NCBI GenBank assembly: GCA_903926465.1
Contig: CAIYJE010000046.1
Location: 1 to 64,000, forward strand
Length of the DNA: 64,000 bases
Direction of reading: 5' to 3'
Source of the DNA: an uncultured Planctomycetales bacterium
GTDB taxonomy: Bacteria > Planctomycetota > Planctomycetia > Isosphaerales > Isosphaeraceae
The notes below the pieces were generated by a model. It had not been told where the DNA came from and did not search any database. It saw nothing but the letters and a program-made list of their open reading frames with translations. How positions within the stretch are numbered: the first letter of the stretch is position 1; each line of letters begins with the position of its first letter. A program made the translations under genes and the position numbers. Of this stretch, positions 52,823 through 62,475 are shown one piece after another.

Positions 52823-53986
52823 TCATTGCAAGATTTCAAGCTTGGGCATCTTGGGCATTTTGATGTTCTGGATGCTGATCTGGGCGGCCAGTTGTTCCAC
52901 AACCTTGAGCAAGTAAGGTCTGGAGGGGTTATCGGCCTGGAAGACCTGACCGAGCCGCCCTTCGTCGCCCCGTTCACGGAGCAGGATATTCAAGGGCACC
53001 TCGCCCAGGAACGGAACACCGAGATTTTCCGCCTTCCGGCGTGCTCCGCCTTTGCCGAACAGGTAAACCCGCTCAGCGCCTGGGTACGCAAAGAAAGACC
53101 CGGACTTCAGCAAGCTCTGCGCCTCTGGGCCGGCGTTCTCTCTGAGGTAAGCAGAGACATCAAAGAAGCTCATGTTCTCTACCATGCCGAGTAGTGGCAC
53201 CTTCAGTTGCTGGAACATGGTGATGGCGCGGGCGGCATCGAGCAGGGCCACTTCCTGGGGTGTGCAAACCACCACGGCGCCGGTCAGGGGCAGGCTTTGG
53301 GCCAGCGTCAGGGGCACGTCTCCCGTGCCTGGCGGCAGGTCGATCACCAGGTAGTCCAGTTCGCCCCACTCCACCTGGTGCAAGAACTGCCCAATGATGC
53401 CATGGAGCATGGGGCCACGCATGACCACGGCCCGATCTGGCTCAAGCAAGAAGCCCATCGACATCAGTTTCAGGCCGGATGCCACAATGGGTTCCAGGCG
53501 GTTCCCGAGCGTGGTCGGTCGGCCGGCGGCCCCAACCAGGTGGGGGATCGATGGACCGTAAATGTCGGCATCGAGCAGGCCAACTTTTGCCCCAAAGCTC
53601 TGGAGCCCAAAGGCGATGCTGGCGGCCATGGTGGATTTACCCACGCCCCCCTTGCCCGACCCAACCGCGATCACGTTCTTGACGCCCGGAATATCGCCTT
53701 TTTCCTTGATTCCCTTGCCACGAACCTCGGCCGTCAACTTGATATCGTAGCGAAGCTGAGTGCCCAGCCGCGATTCCAGAGCCGTACGCACGTCACGCTC
53801 AATCTGTGCCTTCATTGGGCAGGCCGGCGTGGTCAGGTTCACCGTAAGCGCCACGTAACCGGGGCCGGTTAGCACGTCCTTGATCATCCCAAGGTCAACC
53901 AGATCGCGATTCAGGTCTGGGTCCTTGACTCCCTTCAAGGCCGTCAGCACATCACGTTCACTCAGGGAGGTCGGGGTTCCAGACAT
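52823..53986 (-). CDS. Mrp/NBP35-type P-loop ATPase (Fe-S carrier family)
   Basis: A 387-residue protein. The N-terminal MIP18-like domain (about 8-92) has DPDLNRDLVDLGMIKDV and TPACPMK. The ATPase domain has the deviant Walker A GSGKGGVGKS (109-118), LLDADIYGPSIPHL and YLVIDLPPGTGDVPLTLAQ. Family members load or carry Fe-S clusters through a C-terminal CPxC just after the NMS(F/Y)F segment. Here that segment reads NMSFFDVSAYLRENAG, with no cysteine pair and about 25 extra residues before LFGKGGARRKAENLGVPFLG. The start is the ATG at 53986. Confidence 0.93.
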   Translation of the reverse strand: MSGTPTSLSERDVLTALKGVKDPDLNRDLVDLGMIKDVLTGPGYVALTVNLTTPACPMKAQIERDVRTALESRLGTQLRYDIKLTAEVRGKGIKEKGDIPGVKNVIAVGSGKGGVGKSTMAASIAFGLQSFGAKVGLLDADIYGPSIPHLVGAAGRPTTLGNRLEPIVASGLKLMSMGFLLEPDRAVVMRGPMLHGIIGQFLHQVEWGELDYLVIDLPPGTGDVPLTLAQSLPLTGAVVVCTPQEVALLDAARAITMFQQLKVPLLGMVENMSFFDVSAYLRENAGPEAQSLLKSGSFFAYPGAERVYLFGKGGARRKAENLGVPFLGEVPLNILLRERGDEGRLGQVFQADNPSRPYLLKVVEQLAAQISIQNIKMPKMPKLEILQ

Positions 53987-54794: not shown

Positions 54795-54956
54795 ATGTCT
54801 CGAATTCGGATATTTCGCGGCCGGGGCCGGGGTTCCTACCAGGCGTCTGAACTTGTCTCGCTTTTCATTCTGAGCCTGATGGGTGGAATGTTCGTGTGCT
54901 GTGTTTGGTATGCGCTTGATTTCTTGCTGAGCAAGGTTTTGCACGTGACCAATTAG
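54795..54956 (+). CDS. Small single-span membrane protein
   Basis: A 53-residue protein: MSRIRIFRGRGRGSYQAS, then a hydrophobic span (about 20-45, LVSLFILSLMGGMFVCCVW), then LLSKVLHVTN. The ATG at 54795 has GGGGAG eight bases upstream; the frame is open further upstream but without homology. It lies 53 bp before the vWA-protein gene on the same strand and may be co-transcribed with it. Confidence 0.6.
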   Translation: MSRIRIFRGRGRGSYQASELVSLFILSLMGGMFVCCVWYALDFLLSKVLHVTN

Positions 54957-55009: not shown

Positions 55010-55720
55010 ATGCTTCGATTTGCGTCGGTTAAAGCTGGTGCAGTTGGTCTTCTGATTGGTCTGGGACTGGCTGCAAGCACGGCTGCCATGGGGCAAGACG
55101 TAGTGATTGAGTCTGAGACCAAGGCCCGGCAGCGGGGTGGCTCGGCTTTTCTCAATCCGCTCGGGCAGGAGTCTGGCTATTCCGATCCGATCGACTGGCG
55201 AAGCGTACCCCCGTCTCGGCAAACCTCGTTTTTTGGAATGCGTGCCAAAGGGACGTTCTTTGTGTTCGTGGTCGATTGCTCAGGCAGCATGGGCGAAGAA
55301 CGCTGGGGGCGGGTTCAGACGGAGCTGAAGAAGACGTTGCTCGGACTCCAGTTTCCGCAACGTTACCTGGTGATCTTCTACAACGATCGGGTTTTGCCCA
55401 TGCCTGGCGGGCTCCCGCAATCGGCTGAAAAGGGGTCGGCCATGCGCACACTGAACTGGGCCTCGTTGCTGGTTCCCGATGGCGCAACCGAACCGGAAGC
55501 CGCCATGAAGATGGCCATTGGGCTCAGGCCAGATGCCGTGTTCCTGCTCTCGGATGGTGAGTACCCGGAAGGGGCGGCCGACCGGATCATTGCCAACAAC
55601 AAGGGCCCGAGCCCGGTTCTGGTAAATAGCATCGATCTATCGGGCGGAGCTGGCGGTACCGACCTCAAGCGAATTGCTGAACGATCGGGCGGCCAGTACG
55701 CCACGCGATCTTCGCAGTGA
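55010..55720 (+). CDS. Secreted von Willebrand factor A-domain protein
   Basis: A 236-residue protein with a signal peptide (about 1-28) and one vWA domain. GTFFVFVVDCSGSMG carries the MIDAS metal site D89-x-S91-x-S93, and AVFLLSDGEYPEGAADRI the later Asp. vWA domains bind protein partners through a divalent metal. It is convergent with the two coiled-coil membrane protein genes (80-bp gap), which suggests a shared envelope task. A membrane span is absent beyond the signal peptide. Confidence 0.9.
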   Translation: MLRFASVKAGAVGLLIGLGLAASTAAMGQDVVIESETKARQRGGSAFLNPLGQESGYSDPIDWRSVPPSRQTSFFGMRAKGTFFVFVVDCSGSMGEERWGRVQTELKKTLLGLQFPQRYLVIFYNDRVLPMPGGLPQSAEKGSAMRTLNWASLLVPDGATEPEAAMKMAIGLRPDAVFLLSDGEYPEGAADRIIANNKGPSPVLVNSIDLSGGAGGTDLKRIAERSGGQYATRSSQ

Positions 55721-55800: not shown

Positions 55801-56925
55801 TTATTGTGCCGCCGAGATTGAGCCGGACGGGCTCCCGCGAATCAGCATGTCTTCCGGTAGCGGACGGGCGGAAATGAGGAACCCACGCTGGTGCAAGATA
55901 TCGCGCAAAACGCGATAAAGTTCGAAGCCATCGGGGTAAATCCACATCGTGATGGCGTCTCGCTGCGGGTTGAGCCGACCCGTGGCCTGGGCAAAATCTG
56001 AGGCGGGTGAAATCGCCTGTTCATAAGACTCTCCGCGCAGATTTTGGGTTGGCACAATTTCCCAGCTATTGAGTTCATATGAGGTGTTCAGGCTTGAAGA
56101 GCGGGGTCCGCCGTCACCCATACTTAGTCCCGCAGGAACCATTTCGTATCGGATGGAGAAGGCACCAACCGGCCCAACCGTTCCAGTGATCGGCCGCGGT
56201 GAACCCATGAGCCGGAGCTGCACGCGAGCATCGGTCTTGAGGCGGTCAAGCAAGCCATCGATATCGAGATAGCTGACACGGTTGCCCCGGATTTCAAAGT
56301 GAGTCTCTGCGCCGGCTGGTGGCCGGGCGACCGGCGTTTTATCCAGCAAGGGTTTCCCCTTGGGCCTGGGTGATTTTTCGATAGCTGCCAGTTCGGTTTT
56401 CAGCTTGGCAACATCGGCCATCACCTGCTTCATCCGGCCCTGAGCCCGTTCGATCCGAGCCGACGGGTCACGGAGTTGCTTGACCAGGTTTCGGTAGGTC
56501 GCCATTTCCTGGCTCAAGGCAAGCTGGGCGTTGGTCAGGTCGCTCGCAGTTTCCTTCGCACGATCGTCGGCACGCTTGCGATCTCTGGTCGCGGAATCGA
56601 GGGCCTGCTGGGCCAGGGCAATCGCCTCATGGTCCAGTTCAGGAGGGGCCGGTGCCGGTGCCTGCGCCGGTGGTACGGGTGAAGGTTCAGGTTCGGTTTT
56701 CGCCAGTTCGACGGCTTCCGGTGGGTGGGGTGGTAGTTCAGGCGGGGCTTCTAATACCGAAAGGCTTGCTTCCGGCTGCACTGGTTCGGGATTCCTGAAA
56801 CCAAACACAGCGACCAACCCCAGCGCCAGCAATAACCCCAGTGCGCTCAAGAGCGGGCCCTTCAGCGACGCGGCCTGAGTAGTTTTGGCAATCAACGGTT
56901 CTTGCTCTGTCTCTTGCAGGCTCAT
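55801..56925 (-). CDS. Membrane-anchored coiled-coil protein with novel C-terminal domain
   Basis: A 374-residue protein. One membrane span (about 24-43, PLLSALGLLLALGLVAVFGF) is followed by a Pro/Glu/Ala-rich linker (about 46-98), a coiled coil (about 100-185) and a C-terminal domain (about 205-365). The last contains FEIRGNRVSYLDIDGLLDRL and ITMWIYPDGFELYRVLRDIL. The same architecture and a related domain occur in the upstream overlapping gene. Its ATG overlaps the upstream stop codon by four bases (ATGA). The function is unknown; the layout recalls TolA/ExbD-like envelope proteins, but no such motif is present. Confidence 0.8.
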   Translation of the reverse strand: MSLQETEQEPLIAKTTQAASLKGPLLSALGLLLALGLVAVFGFRNPEPVQPEASLSVLEAPPELPPHPPEAVELAKTEPEPSPVPPAQAPAPAPPELDHEAIALAQQALDSATRDRKRADDRAKETASDLTNAQLALSQEMATYRNLVKQLRDPSARIERAQGRMKQVMADVAKLKTELAAIEKSPRPKGKPLLDKTPVARPPAGAETHFEIRGNRVSYLDIDGLLDRLKTDARVQLRLMGSPRPITGTVGPVGAFSIRYEMVPAGLSMGDGGPRSSSLNTSYELNSWEIVPTQNLRGESYEQAISPASDFAQATGRLNPQRDAITMWIYPDGFELYRVLRDILHQRGFLISARPLPEDMLIRGSPSGSISAAQ

Positions 56926-59537
56926 CGGGGTGGCTCCTCCAGTAACCAGCGGTCCCAGGAGATCGAATCGGTGAGCTGGATGGTGGCCGGCCAGTCCATG
57001 CCAATGAAGCTGCTCTGGCGTCTGGCCAGCCAGAACGCATCTTGGCCGCCTGCCTCCACCACATAACGCAGCCTCGGCCGCCGGATTCGTCCCCGGTCAT
57101 CGCGAGCGTGCCGGTTGGCAATCGCTTTCAGTCGGTCATTCAAAAGCGTGGCCGATTCCAGCTTTTCCAAGGTCAGCCGATAGCCGCCTGGCTGAATCGT
57201 TACACCGTGCGCCTGGCAAGCGATCACAATGTCCAGCCACTCTTCAGAGACCTTGGGCGGTAACCCGTCTGAAGCACCACTGGGTGTGGAGAGCCAGCTT
57301 GATTCACCCTGGCCACCGCTTCCGCCTGCCAGCGGGCTGCCACTGCCACTACTGCTCGATGATCCCTGGGCAGACTGGGAGCCTGAGCTACCGCTTCCCC
57401 CCGAGGAGCCTTGAGCAGATTGAGAGCCTGAGCTACCGCTTCCCCCCGAGGAGCCTTGAGCAGACTGGGAGCCTGAGCTACCACTGCCGGCGTTGGTGCT
57501 TAATGCTCCAGCCGAACTGCCGGGCGAGCCCGGCCCGTTTGAATGAGCTGGATTCCCGGTCGATCCCGGTGCCGGGCTTCCACCGGACATGGAGCCGGGC
57601 GTTGCCGGGCTCGCGTTTGAGTTTTGACCGCCGCCGTCTTGGCTTTGCCCCGGTTGTGAGCCAGGTGACATTCCTGATTGGCCGGCCGTAGAACCGGGTG
57701 CCCCGCCCTGTCCCGCCTGAATCGGATTTCCTGGGATTCCACCGGCCCGGTTCATCCCTGGGGAGTCGGAGCCCTGCAAGCCCGAGCCTGTACCCAGCAA
57801 ACTGTCCGCAACCTGGCCCAGGCGGTTGACCGTGCCTGTGGCTCCCTGGCCCTGCGCGGGCTGACCGGGCGAGTATACCCCGGAAGGTCTGCCTGTCCCT
57901 GAGCCTGGCTGAGCGGTTCCCTGGGGCAATGGCCCAGCAGGTGCCAGGCCGCCGCCAGTCAAGCCGCTGCCGCCAGGAGTTTGCGTCCCTTGCGTGCCCG
58001 CTTGCTGGTAACCGCCGGCAGACGCCACGAGTTCAGATGTGCCGCTGGAGCCGGTTCGGGGCGCGAATGGGCTAGCGGATGTTCCAGGCGCGGGAGCGCG
58101 GCCTGCGGTTGAGGTGCCGGCTTGCGTCCCCCCTGTGGGTATCGGTGGCTCTGCAACCAGACTTCCAGGCTGGCCGGTCGATCCCGGCTGGCTGGGTTTG
58201 ATGATGGCCGGGATATTGTTCCGACCGGTGCCACCGTTCCCCGGGCCTGCATTTCTCCACTGACCGGGAATGATTTCGGTTCCGTCTGGATCAGGCCCGC
58301 TCGGTCTGCGGGGGTCGGGAACCTTGCGCATCGGGGGCTCAAGCAAATCGCCAGGACCCATCGTATCGGAGCGATCCTGATCACTCAGCCCAGAAATGAT
58401 TCTTCCGCCCTGCCCGTCAGGCAGTTCAAGAGGCTGGCCAGATTGCGCGGGGCCGTCTGCCCCCTTGAGTGTATTGTTGGGCCAGACGTACAGATCGTCG
58501 GGGTCTTCGGCGGCCGGCACGCCGGCAGATCCCCGGCCTGTTCCACCTTGAGGTTTGACCCGGGCCCGTGCCGAGGCTCGCTCATCACGAGCCTTGGCGC
58601 GGGTGGTTTCTGGCACGTCAATCACCCAGTCTTGGCCGACGAGTTCATAACCGAACGCAATTCGGGTCGATTCCAGCAGGGTGCGGGCCTGATAGTAGTG
58701 GCGAATTCCATCGGGCCGCACGACGAATAAAATATAAGGGACGCCGGGTGCCCCATCTGGTGAGATCTCGTCTTGCAGTTCGGCGGCCTTCTTGCGGACC
58801 TCATACACGAGCGAGATCGCCCGGGCGTTGGGAATGGGTCCGAGTTCGGCCGATCCGTGGATCTTGCCATCTGGCAGGACCCGGACGGAATCACCCGAGC
58901 AGTCCACCACAATCGGCCGTCGCCACGTACCGGAGGGGCCTTTGTACGGGCTCACGGAATAGGTCTCGCCCCGTTTGGCGTTGGCCTCAACCAGATCTTT
59001 CATCTTCTCATCACGCACCCGAGCGAGGCTGGCTTTTTGTTGCTCGGCGGTGGGCAGAGATTTTTCCAGGTCGCCAACCAACTTATCAAGCTGACGCGAC
59101 CGGCCTTTGACCAGCGTCTTGCGCTGGCTCCACTTTTGTTTCTCGGCCCTGAGCCGTTCGGTTTCCTGAAGCTGCTGCTGGACCTGCGCATCGGAAGCCA
59201 GCGCCGCCGATTTTTGCTGCTCGGCCCGTGTGGCCAGTCGCTCAAGTTCGGGAGCCGTGGGATCTGCGGCAGGCTCTGGGGCAGGTGCCGGATCAGGCTC
59301 TGGGGCGGGTGCTACTTCAGCAACCTCAACCGGCGGCTCAGGCTCAGCTTCTGGCTCTGGGGATGTTTCCGCTTTCACCTTGAGTGGAGGCGTGACCGGT
59401 CTGGCCGCCATCGGTTGTGCCGGGGGCGCAATGTCATACGCCTTCTTGACCAGCCCAAAGGTGGTCAAGAGACTCAACAGCACCAGGAGCACGACTGTGA
59501 GCTCGGCTCCGATGTGACGGACCTGGCCTGGCATCAT
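56922..59537 (-). CDS. Membrane-anchored coiled-coil protein with two domain copies and low-complexity linker
   Basis: An 871-residue protein. One membrane span (about 13-30, LTVVLLVLLSLLTTFGLV), a Pro/Glu/Ala linker (about 50-95), a coiled coil (about 96-190), then a first globular domain (about 207-309, RPIVVDCSGDSVRVLPDGK and PYILFVVRPDGIRHYYQAR). A very long Gly/Ser/Pro/Gln-rich region follows (about 320-765), containing 45-bp tandem repeats. A second domain copy closes the protein (about 767-871, WLDIVIACQAHGVTIQPGGY and LRYVVEAGGQDAFWLARRQ). Start ATG 59537 or 59534, after GGAGG. It is translationally coupled to the next gene. Function is unknown; an envelope role is inferred. Confidence 0.82.
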   Translation of the reverse strand: MMPGQVRHIGAELTVVLLVLLSLLTTFGLVKKAYDIAPPAQPMAARPVTPPLKVKAETSPEPEAEPEPPVEVAEVAPAPEPDPAPAPEPAADPTAPELERLATRAEQQKSAALASDAQVQQQLQETERLRAEKQKWSQRKTLVKGRSRQLDKLVGDLEKSLPTAEQQKASLARVRDEKMKDLVEANAKRGETYSVSPYKGPSGTWRRPIVVDCSGDSVRVLPDGKIHGSAELGPIPNARAISLVYEVRKKAAELQDEISPDGAPGVPYILFVVRPDGIRHYYQARTLLESTRIAFGYELVGQDWVIDVPETTRAKARDERASARARVKPQGGTGRGSAGVPAAEDPDDLYVWPNNTLKGADGPAQSGQPLELPDGQGGRIISGLSDQDRSDTMGPGDLLEPPMRKVPDPRRPSGPDPDGTEIIPGQWRNAGPGNGGTGRNNIPAIIKPSQPGSTGQPGSLVAEPPIPTGGTQAGTSTAGRAPAPGTSASPFAPRTGSSGTSELVASAGGYQQAGTQGTQTPGGSGLTGGGLAPAGPLPQGTAQPGSGTGRPSGVYSPGQPAQGQGATGTVNRLGQVADSLLGTGSGLQGSDSPGMNRAGGIPGNPIQAGQGGAPGSTAGQSGMSPGSQPGQSQDGGGQNSNASPATPGSMSGGSPAPGSTGNPAHSNGPGSPGSSAGALSTNAGSGSSGSQSAQGSSGGSGSSGSQSAQGSSGGSGSSGSQSAQGSSSSSGSGSPLAGGSGGQGESSWLSTPSGASDGLPPKVSEEWLDIVIACQAHGVTIQPGGYRLTLEKLESATLLNDRLKAIANRHARDDRGRIRRPRLRYVVEAGGQDAFWLARRQSSFIGMDWPATIQLTDSISWDRWLLEEPPR
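57371..57505 (-). repeat. 45-bp tandem repeats in a Gly/Ser-rich linker
   Basis: Units beginning CAGACTGGGAGCCTGAG (plus strand) start at 57371, 57416 and 57461, the third partial. Two are identical over most of their length. Each encodes a 15-residue GSSGGSGSSGSQSAQ-like unit of the linker. In-frame copy number could vary between strains. Confidence 0.85.

Positions 59538-62475
<2,938 letters not shown>

Follow-up and report, generated by a model that had tools for sequence, protein, structure and literature searches.

Towards the end of the window (the whole stretch of DNA analysed, 64,000 nucleotides from an uncultured member of the Isosphaeraceae), two genes lie on the minus strand, with the stop of the first, gene B, overlapping the start of the second, gene A, by 4 bp (56922-56925). 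Both products run from an N-terminal membrane span through a Pro/Glu linker into a coiled coil; A then ends in a C-terminal domain, and B continues with a domain D1, a Gly/Ser/Pro-rich linker of ~440 residues and a domain D2 (Table 1). The two ORFs, the 4-bp overlap and the succession of membrane span, Pro/Glu linker, coiled coil and globular domain had been given in a preliminary description of this DNA and were confirmed. Searches of A and B against Pfam, NCBIfam and PADLOC returned no family covering either protein, only coiled-coil noise; coiled-coil matches to SMC, ATG16 and similar proteins were put down to composition only and rejected. The C-terminal tail of A is kept across families and looks like a putative binding tail.

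Table 1. Genes and features of the A-B locus, in window coordinates.
Feature	Position	Strand	Basis
Small single-span membrane ORF before vWA gene	54795..54956	(+)	Relatives in two other family members
vWA protein, secreted-looking, MIDAS-type motif (DCSGSM, GATEP, LLSDGE)	55010..55720	(+)	ORF; weak vWA matches
Gene A, 374 aa	55801..56925	(-)	ORF and translation
A C-terminal tail, conserved, GSPxGSxSxxQ-COOH type	55804..55845	(-)	Terminal Gln in 55/60
A C-terminal domain, ~residues 204-364	55834..56316	(-)	AlphaFold pLDDT 90.9, pTM 0.85
A membrane span, residues 22-42, without Asp	56800..56862	(-)	Compared with relatives
Gene B, 871 aa	56922..59537	(-)	ORF and translation; homologs adjoin A
B domain D2, ~residues 764-861, ExbD/TolR-like predicted fold	56955..57248	(-)	Homology to D1; VIA-align of relative's D2
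B domain D1, ~residues 194-311	58605..58958	(-)	Alignment; b-b-a-b-a-b in relative's model
B membrane span, residues 11-30, Glu at its start	59448..59507	(-)	Span homologous to A's in other families

A vWA gene, preceded by a small membrane ORF, runs convergent with A and stops 80 bp short of it, both as previously described. Its product gave weak vWA matches to Pfam and NCBIfam, below the cut-off. Among 21 Isosphaeraceae loci, a vWA gene convergent to A was located within 250 bp in nine and farther off in five more, with the MIDAS-type motif mostly kept among the family loci, and no vWA gene was present at any of the 39 A loci outside the family. The preliminary description had joined the vWA protein with A and B in one complex; across the loci compared the gene is not a constant partner of the pair, although relatives of the window's vWA protein were found elsewhere in vWA-x-ExbB-ExbD-ExbD operons (L214-L217), in which x is an unnamed protein of 350-375 aa. 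Among other neighbours, an ADP-heptose synthase gene (HldE-like; PfkB + cytidylyltransferase) was located upstream of B in nine family loci outside the window (L061, L062, L065, L067, L069, L070, L075, L077 and L078) and hints at the envelope. A gene for an Mrp/NUBPL-type Fe-S carrier (52823-53986), which in L063 and L079 likewise lies within reach of A, and katG (60301-62475) flank the region.

Domain duplication and predicted folds

The preliminary description read the globular domains of A and B as one domain in three copies, arisen by gene duplication. Within B this reading held. D1 and D2 aligned in hhalign at 98.4% (P 8.7e-15), with a score of 80.5 where 60 column shuffles gave no more than 15.6, and by their sequences they represent a true duplication within the protein. 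The A domain aligned with D2 at 24.8% (P 8e-4), beating 60 of 60 shuffles over an aligned part formed by the last strand-helix-strand of A, and with D1 at 1.8%, which was equalled by 3 of 60 shuffles, so that a third copy in A is at most plausible. Gene duplication is thus supported by the D1-D2 homology, and a second homology, absent from the preliminary description, was found between the membrane segments at the N-termini of the two proteins in other families (hhalign 95.1%, P 3.2e-8; the score of 35.8 compares with a maximum of 19.0 among 60 shuffles), so that A and B are paralogous in this part if in no other.

AlphaFold predicted the window's A domain as b-b-a-[b-b-b]-a-b-a-b (pLDDT 90.9). 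Both D1 and D2 were predicted as b-b-a-b-a-b in a compact B relative (L052), whose protein was modelled in place of the window's own B. The predicted A and B domains have a common core order, to which A adds a three-strand insertion. In VIA-align of the relative's B model, the top four of 989 chains were TolR and three ExbD entries, all over D2 (TolR 5by4, Z 8.1, 2.9 A over 80; ExbD 8p9r, Z 7.6, 2.1 A over 70; ExbD 8vgd and 8pek), and Foldseek placed TolR at rank 2 for the same model (E 0.056). With Z values of 7-8 this match is moderate in strength, and the relative's D2 is predicted to have the b-b-a-b-a-b periplasmic fold of ExbD/TolR, as is D1 through its homology to D2. In the preliminary description, coverage of all three domains by a well-described family, with ExbD/TolR as the example, had been named as something that would overturn its reading; the predicted fold of D2 bears this out in part.

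The fold search with the A domain against solved structures gave no good match (Z at most 4.7) and listed no ExbD or TolR, a result still compatible with kinship. At the sequence level, A, B and their relatives did not match PF02472 at E values up to 1-5, and hhalign of the A and B domains against planctomycete ExbD periplasmic-domain alignments reached at most 1.3%. The sole match of the A1 profile to PDB sequences (E 0.42) was disregarded.

Linkage to a channel gene

Planctomycete genomes were searched in depth. Relatives of A were found in 235 of 297 genomes of the class, nearly always in single copy, as counted with first-look filters by which copies may be missed. In other families, a PF01618 (MotA/TolQ/ExbB) gene heads the operon ahead of B and A (E 1.8e-11 to 3.7e-14), a linkage absent from the preliminary description. 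Outside Isosphaeraceae this channel gene was in A's cluster at 30 of 36 informative loci, 28 with channel-B-A on one strand, compared to none of 21 Isosphaeraceae loci within the locus sequence examined; these and the other per-locus counts are not independent events. The N-terminal membrane segments of the other families are of the type DSFLDIVANIVGILIILV in A and SLFPFLAVLVCTMGALI in B. The membrane Asp motif was present in all A proteins outside Isosphaeraceae (39/39) compared to none within the family (0/21). At the B position matching A's Asp, the proteins of other families mostly have Ala (Asp in 4/35, Glu in 1/35). In Isosphaeraceae, the membrane span of B has a Glu at its start in every protein checked (19/19); this residue is absent in other families and could be a retained ion path. 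Neither ExbD/TolR trait, a membrane Asp or an adjoining MotA/TolQ/ExbB channel gene, is present in the window's A-B pair.

A channel together with a single-span axle partner is the layout of the ExbB-ExbD, TolQ-TolR and MotA-MotB motors, and the cassette has it in common with them, here with two different axle proteins. This motor layout is also covered in PMC9389320. A search of the phylum with the A domain yielded further cassettes of channel, B-type and A-type genes, some of them paralogous sets within the same genomes and others from different families of the phylum, with B-type proteins of ~270 aa, A-type proteins of ~370 aa and a channel that often has an N-terminal zinc ribbon. The loci L203-L213 and L220-L228 hold further channel-B-A cassettes, many of them with a zinc ribbon starting the channel protein. 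No family in Pfam, NCBIfam or PADLOC covers the A- and B-types of these cassettes, and in the literature we found no paper naming the channel-B-A cassette. The preliminary description gave no matching named system; this stands as far as Pfam, NCBIfam and PADLOC families for A and B are concerned, but the channel cassette and the predicted D2 fold allow the type of system to be recognised.

Origin and present role of the pair

By ancestry, A and B are very probably axle-type subunits in the role of ExbD, TolR or MotB. We counted for this, and for the fuller reading given next, the channel linkage (30/36 compared to 0/21), the membrane Asp (39/39 compared to 0/21), the homology of the A membrane segment to that of B and of D1 to D2, the ranking of TolR/ExbD and the paralogous cassettes; the lack of a match to PF02472 and of an hhalign match to ExbD, the moderate Z of 7-8 and the A domain lacking a good solved match were counted against it.

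We further consider it rather likely that A-B is the diverged axle pair of a 5:2-type motor cassette, orphaned in Isosphaeraceae and probably repurposed there as a tether or scaffold. In the ancestral cassette, a pentameric channel of the MotA/TolQ/ExbB type would have a single helix each from A and B in its pore. The membrane Asp of A would be the ion-binding site in families that keep the channel, and motion would be passed via the coiled coils to periplasmic domains of the ExbD/TolR fold. Now that the operon has lost the channel gene and A the Asp, the A-B pair of Isosphaeraceae would no longer carry ions and has most likely been kept as a heterodimer that is anchored in the inner membrane and serves as a tether or scaffold in the periplasm. 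Its ExbD/TolR-type domains are proposed to bind peptidoglycan or partner peptides, and it possibly works with the secreted vWA protein. An envelope role for the pair, as first suggested in the preliminary description, is supported.

Two findings were counted against repurposing, the invariant Glu of B and the retention in 43 of 45 family genomes of P0005, an unlinked channel from the wider group to which the operon channels belong. Both are drawn on by the main rival of repurposing, in which A-B would go on working as the axle of a motor in this family, powered by P0005 or a different ExbB, and the Glu of B would stand in for the Asp of A. P0005 (L107:7271-8929, contig C35; genome G000) was the best match in the window's genome to an operon channel profile built without it (E 1.7e-28; next 2e-6), and it retains the GTV and FDST pore motifs. 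An AU test did not reject a grouping of P0005 with the operon channels (p 0.233), but the best tree sets it among the channels of other cassettes with 98-99% support. P0005 also has a nearby partner of its own, P0006 (L107:10712-11449, contig C35), a 250-aa membrane protein encoded near it in 9 of 10 loci, with full-length relatives found only in Isosphaeraceae and an invariant membrane segment containing Lys in 19/19. This Lys matches an invariant Glu in the third membrane helix of P0005 (all 36 rows), where the operon channels of other families have a hydrophobic residue or His. The Glu of P0005 and the Lys of P0006 look like a co-evolved pair, which points to P0006 rather than A-B as the probable occupant of the P0005 pore. 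A still-working axle is a reading we hold to be unlikely. The simpler candidate, that P0005 is the operon channel relocated, was set aside on its place in the tree, with the AU value still allowing it.

That A and B serve the envelope as plain structural components, convergent with ExbD/TolR and only incidentally beside a channel gene, appears improbable: it fits the lack of a sequence-level ExbD match and of a clear solved match to the A domain, but not the channel-B-A order recurring across many families and paralogous cassettes, the membrane Asp in 39/39 or the first places of TolR/ExbD for D2. In favour of a Zorya-like defence module with a motor of the ZorA-ZorB type, the operon channels match ZorA models weakly (E 2e-7) and one B-type paralog touches a ZorB model (E 0.006). 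This reading was rejected as very improbable, since neither A nor B gave a match to any Zor model and A is conserved, nearly always in single copy, across the class.

In those 5:2 motors that have been studied well, the axle is a homodimer and has two Asp residues. The channel-B-A cassette gives fixed pairs of candidate heterodimeric axle proteins, mostly with one Asp, that are conserved through a class with unusual envelopes. Tentatively, and as a possibility somewhat short of even, we propose that planctomycetes have a broad family of motors with heterodimeric axles, mostly with one Asp per axle, and that the Isosphaeraceae pair has turned into a passive envelope element. If this is true, Isosphaeraceae present a natural experiment in an axle pair losing its channel and Asp; with the axle kept after channel loss, what each Asp and the periplasmic domains do becomes directly testable.

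Comparison with known systems

The cassette resembles ExbB-ExbD and TolQ-TolR (PF01618 + PF02472) in its PF01618 channel gene and, outside Isosphaeraceae, in a single-span partner with a membrane Asp; the predicted b-b-a-b-a-b periplasmic domain of B is also closest to TolR and ExbD. It differs from these systems in having two dissimilar large coiled-coil axle proteins with the Asp mostly in A only, in the two domains of B and the b-b-b insertion of A, and in that PF02472 fails to recognise A and B. The Isosphaeraceae pair differs further in being without a channel gene and without the Asp. Zorya ZorA-ZorB has a channel of the same superfamily with a long coiled-coil tail, and a single-span partner, but A and B have no ZorB match and the cassette is broad across the class compared to the patchy spread of Zorya.

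The nearest published text to the channel-B-A cassette is PMC12204202, in which PVC vWA force transducers adjoin tolQ and a pair of tolR genes. This tolQ/tolR/vWA set looks different from channel-B-A and appears to correspond to the operons at L214-L217, which hold relatives of the window's vWA protein. The window's own vWA gene is unlike the described ones in being convergent with A-B and in lacking a nearby channel gene; its product has a signal-peptide-like start, compared to the described membrane helix motif, and the SHLS motif is absent from its sequence.

The Myxococcus gliding motor AglR-AglQ-AglS likewise combines a single channel with two proteins of the axle type. According to PMC9389320 an Asp is carried by AglQ as well as by AglS, unlike the mostly single Asp of the A-B pair, and A and B are longer than AglQ and AglS and have other domain content. 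The formation of an AglQ/AglS heterodimer is stated as unknown in PMC9389320, a question on which the fixed A-B pairs bear. The axle reading also offers an identity for genes outside every family model.
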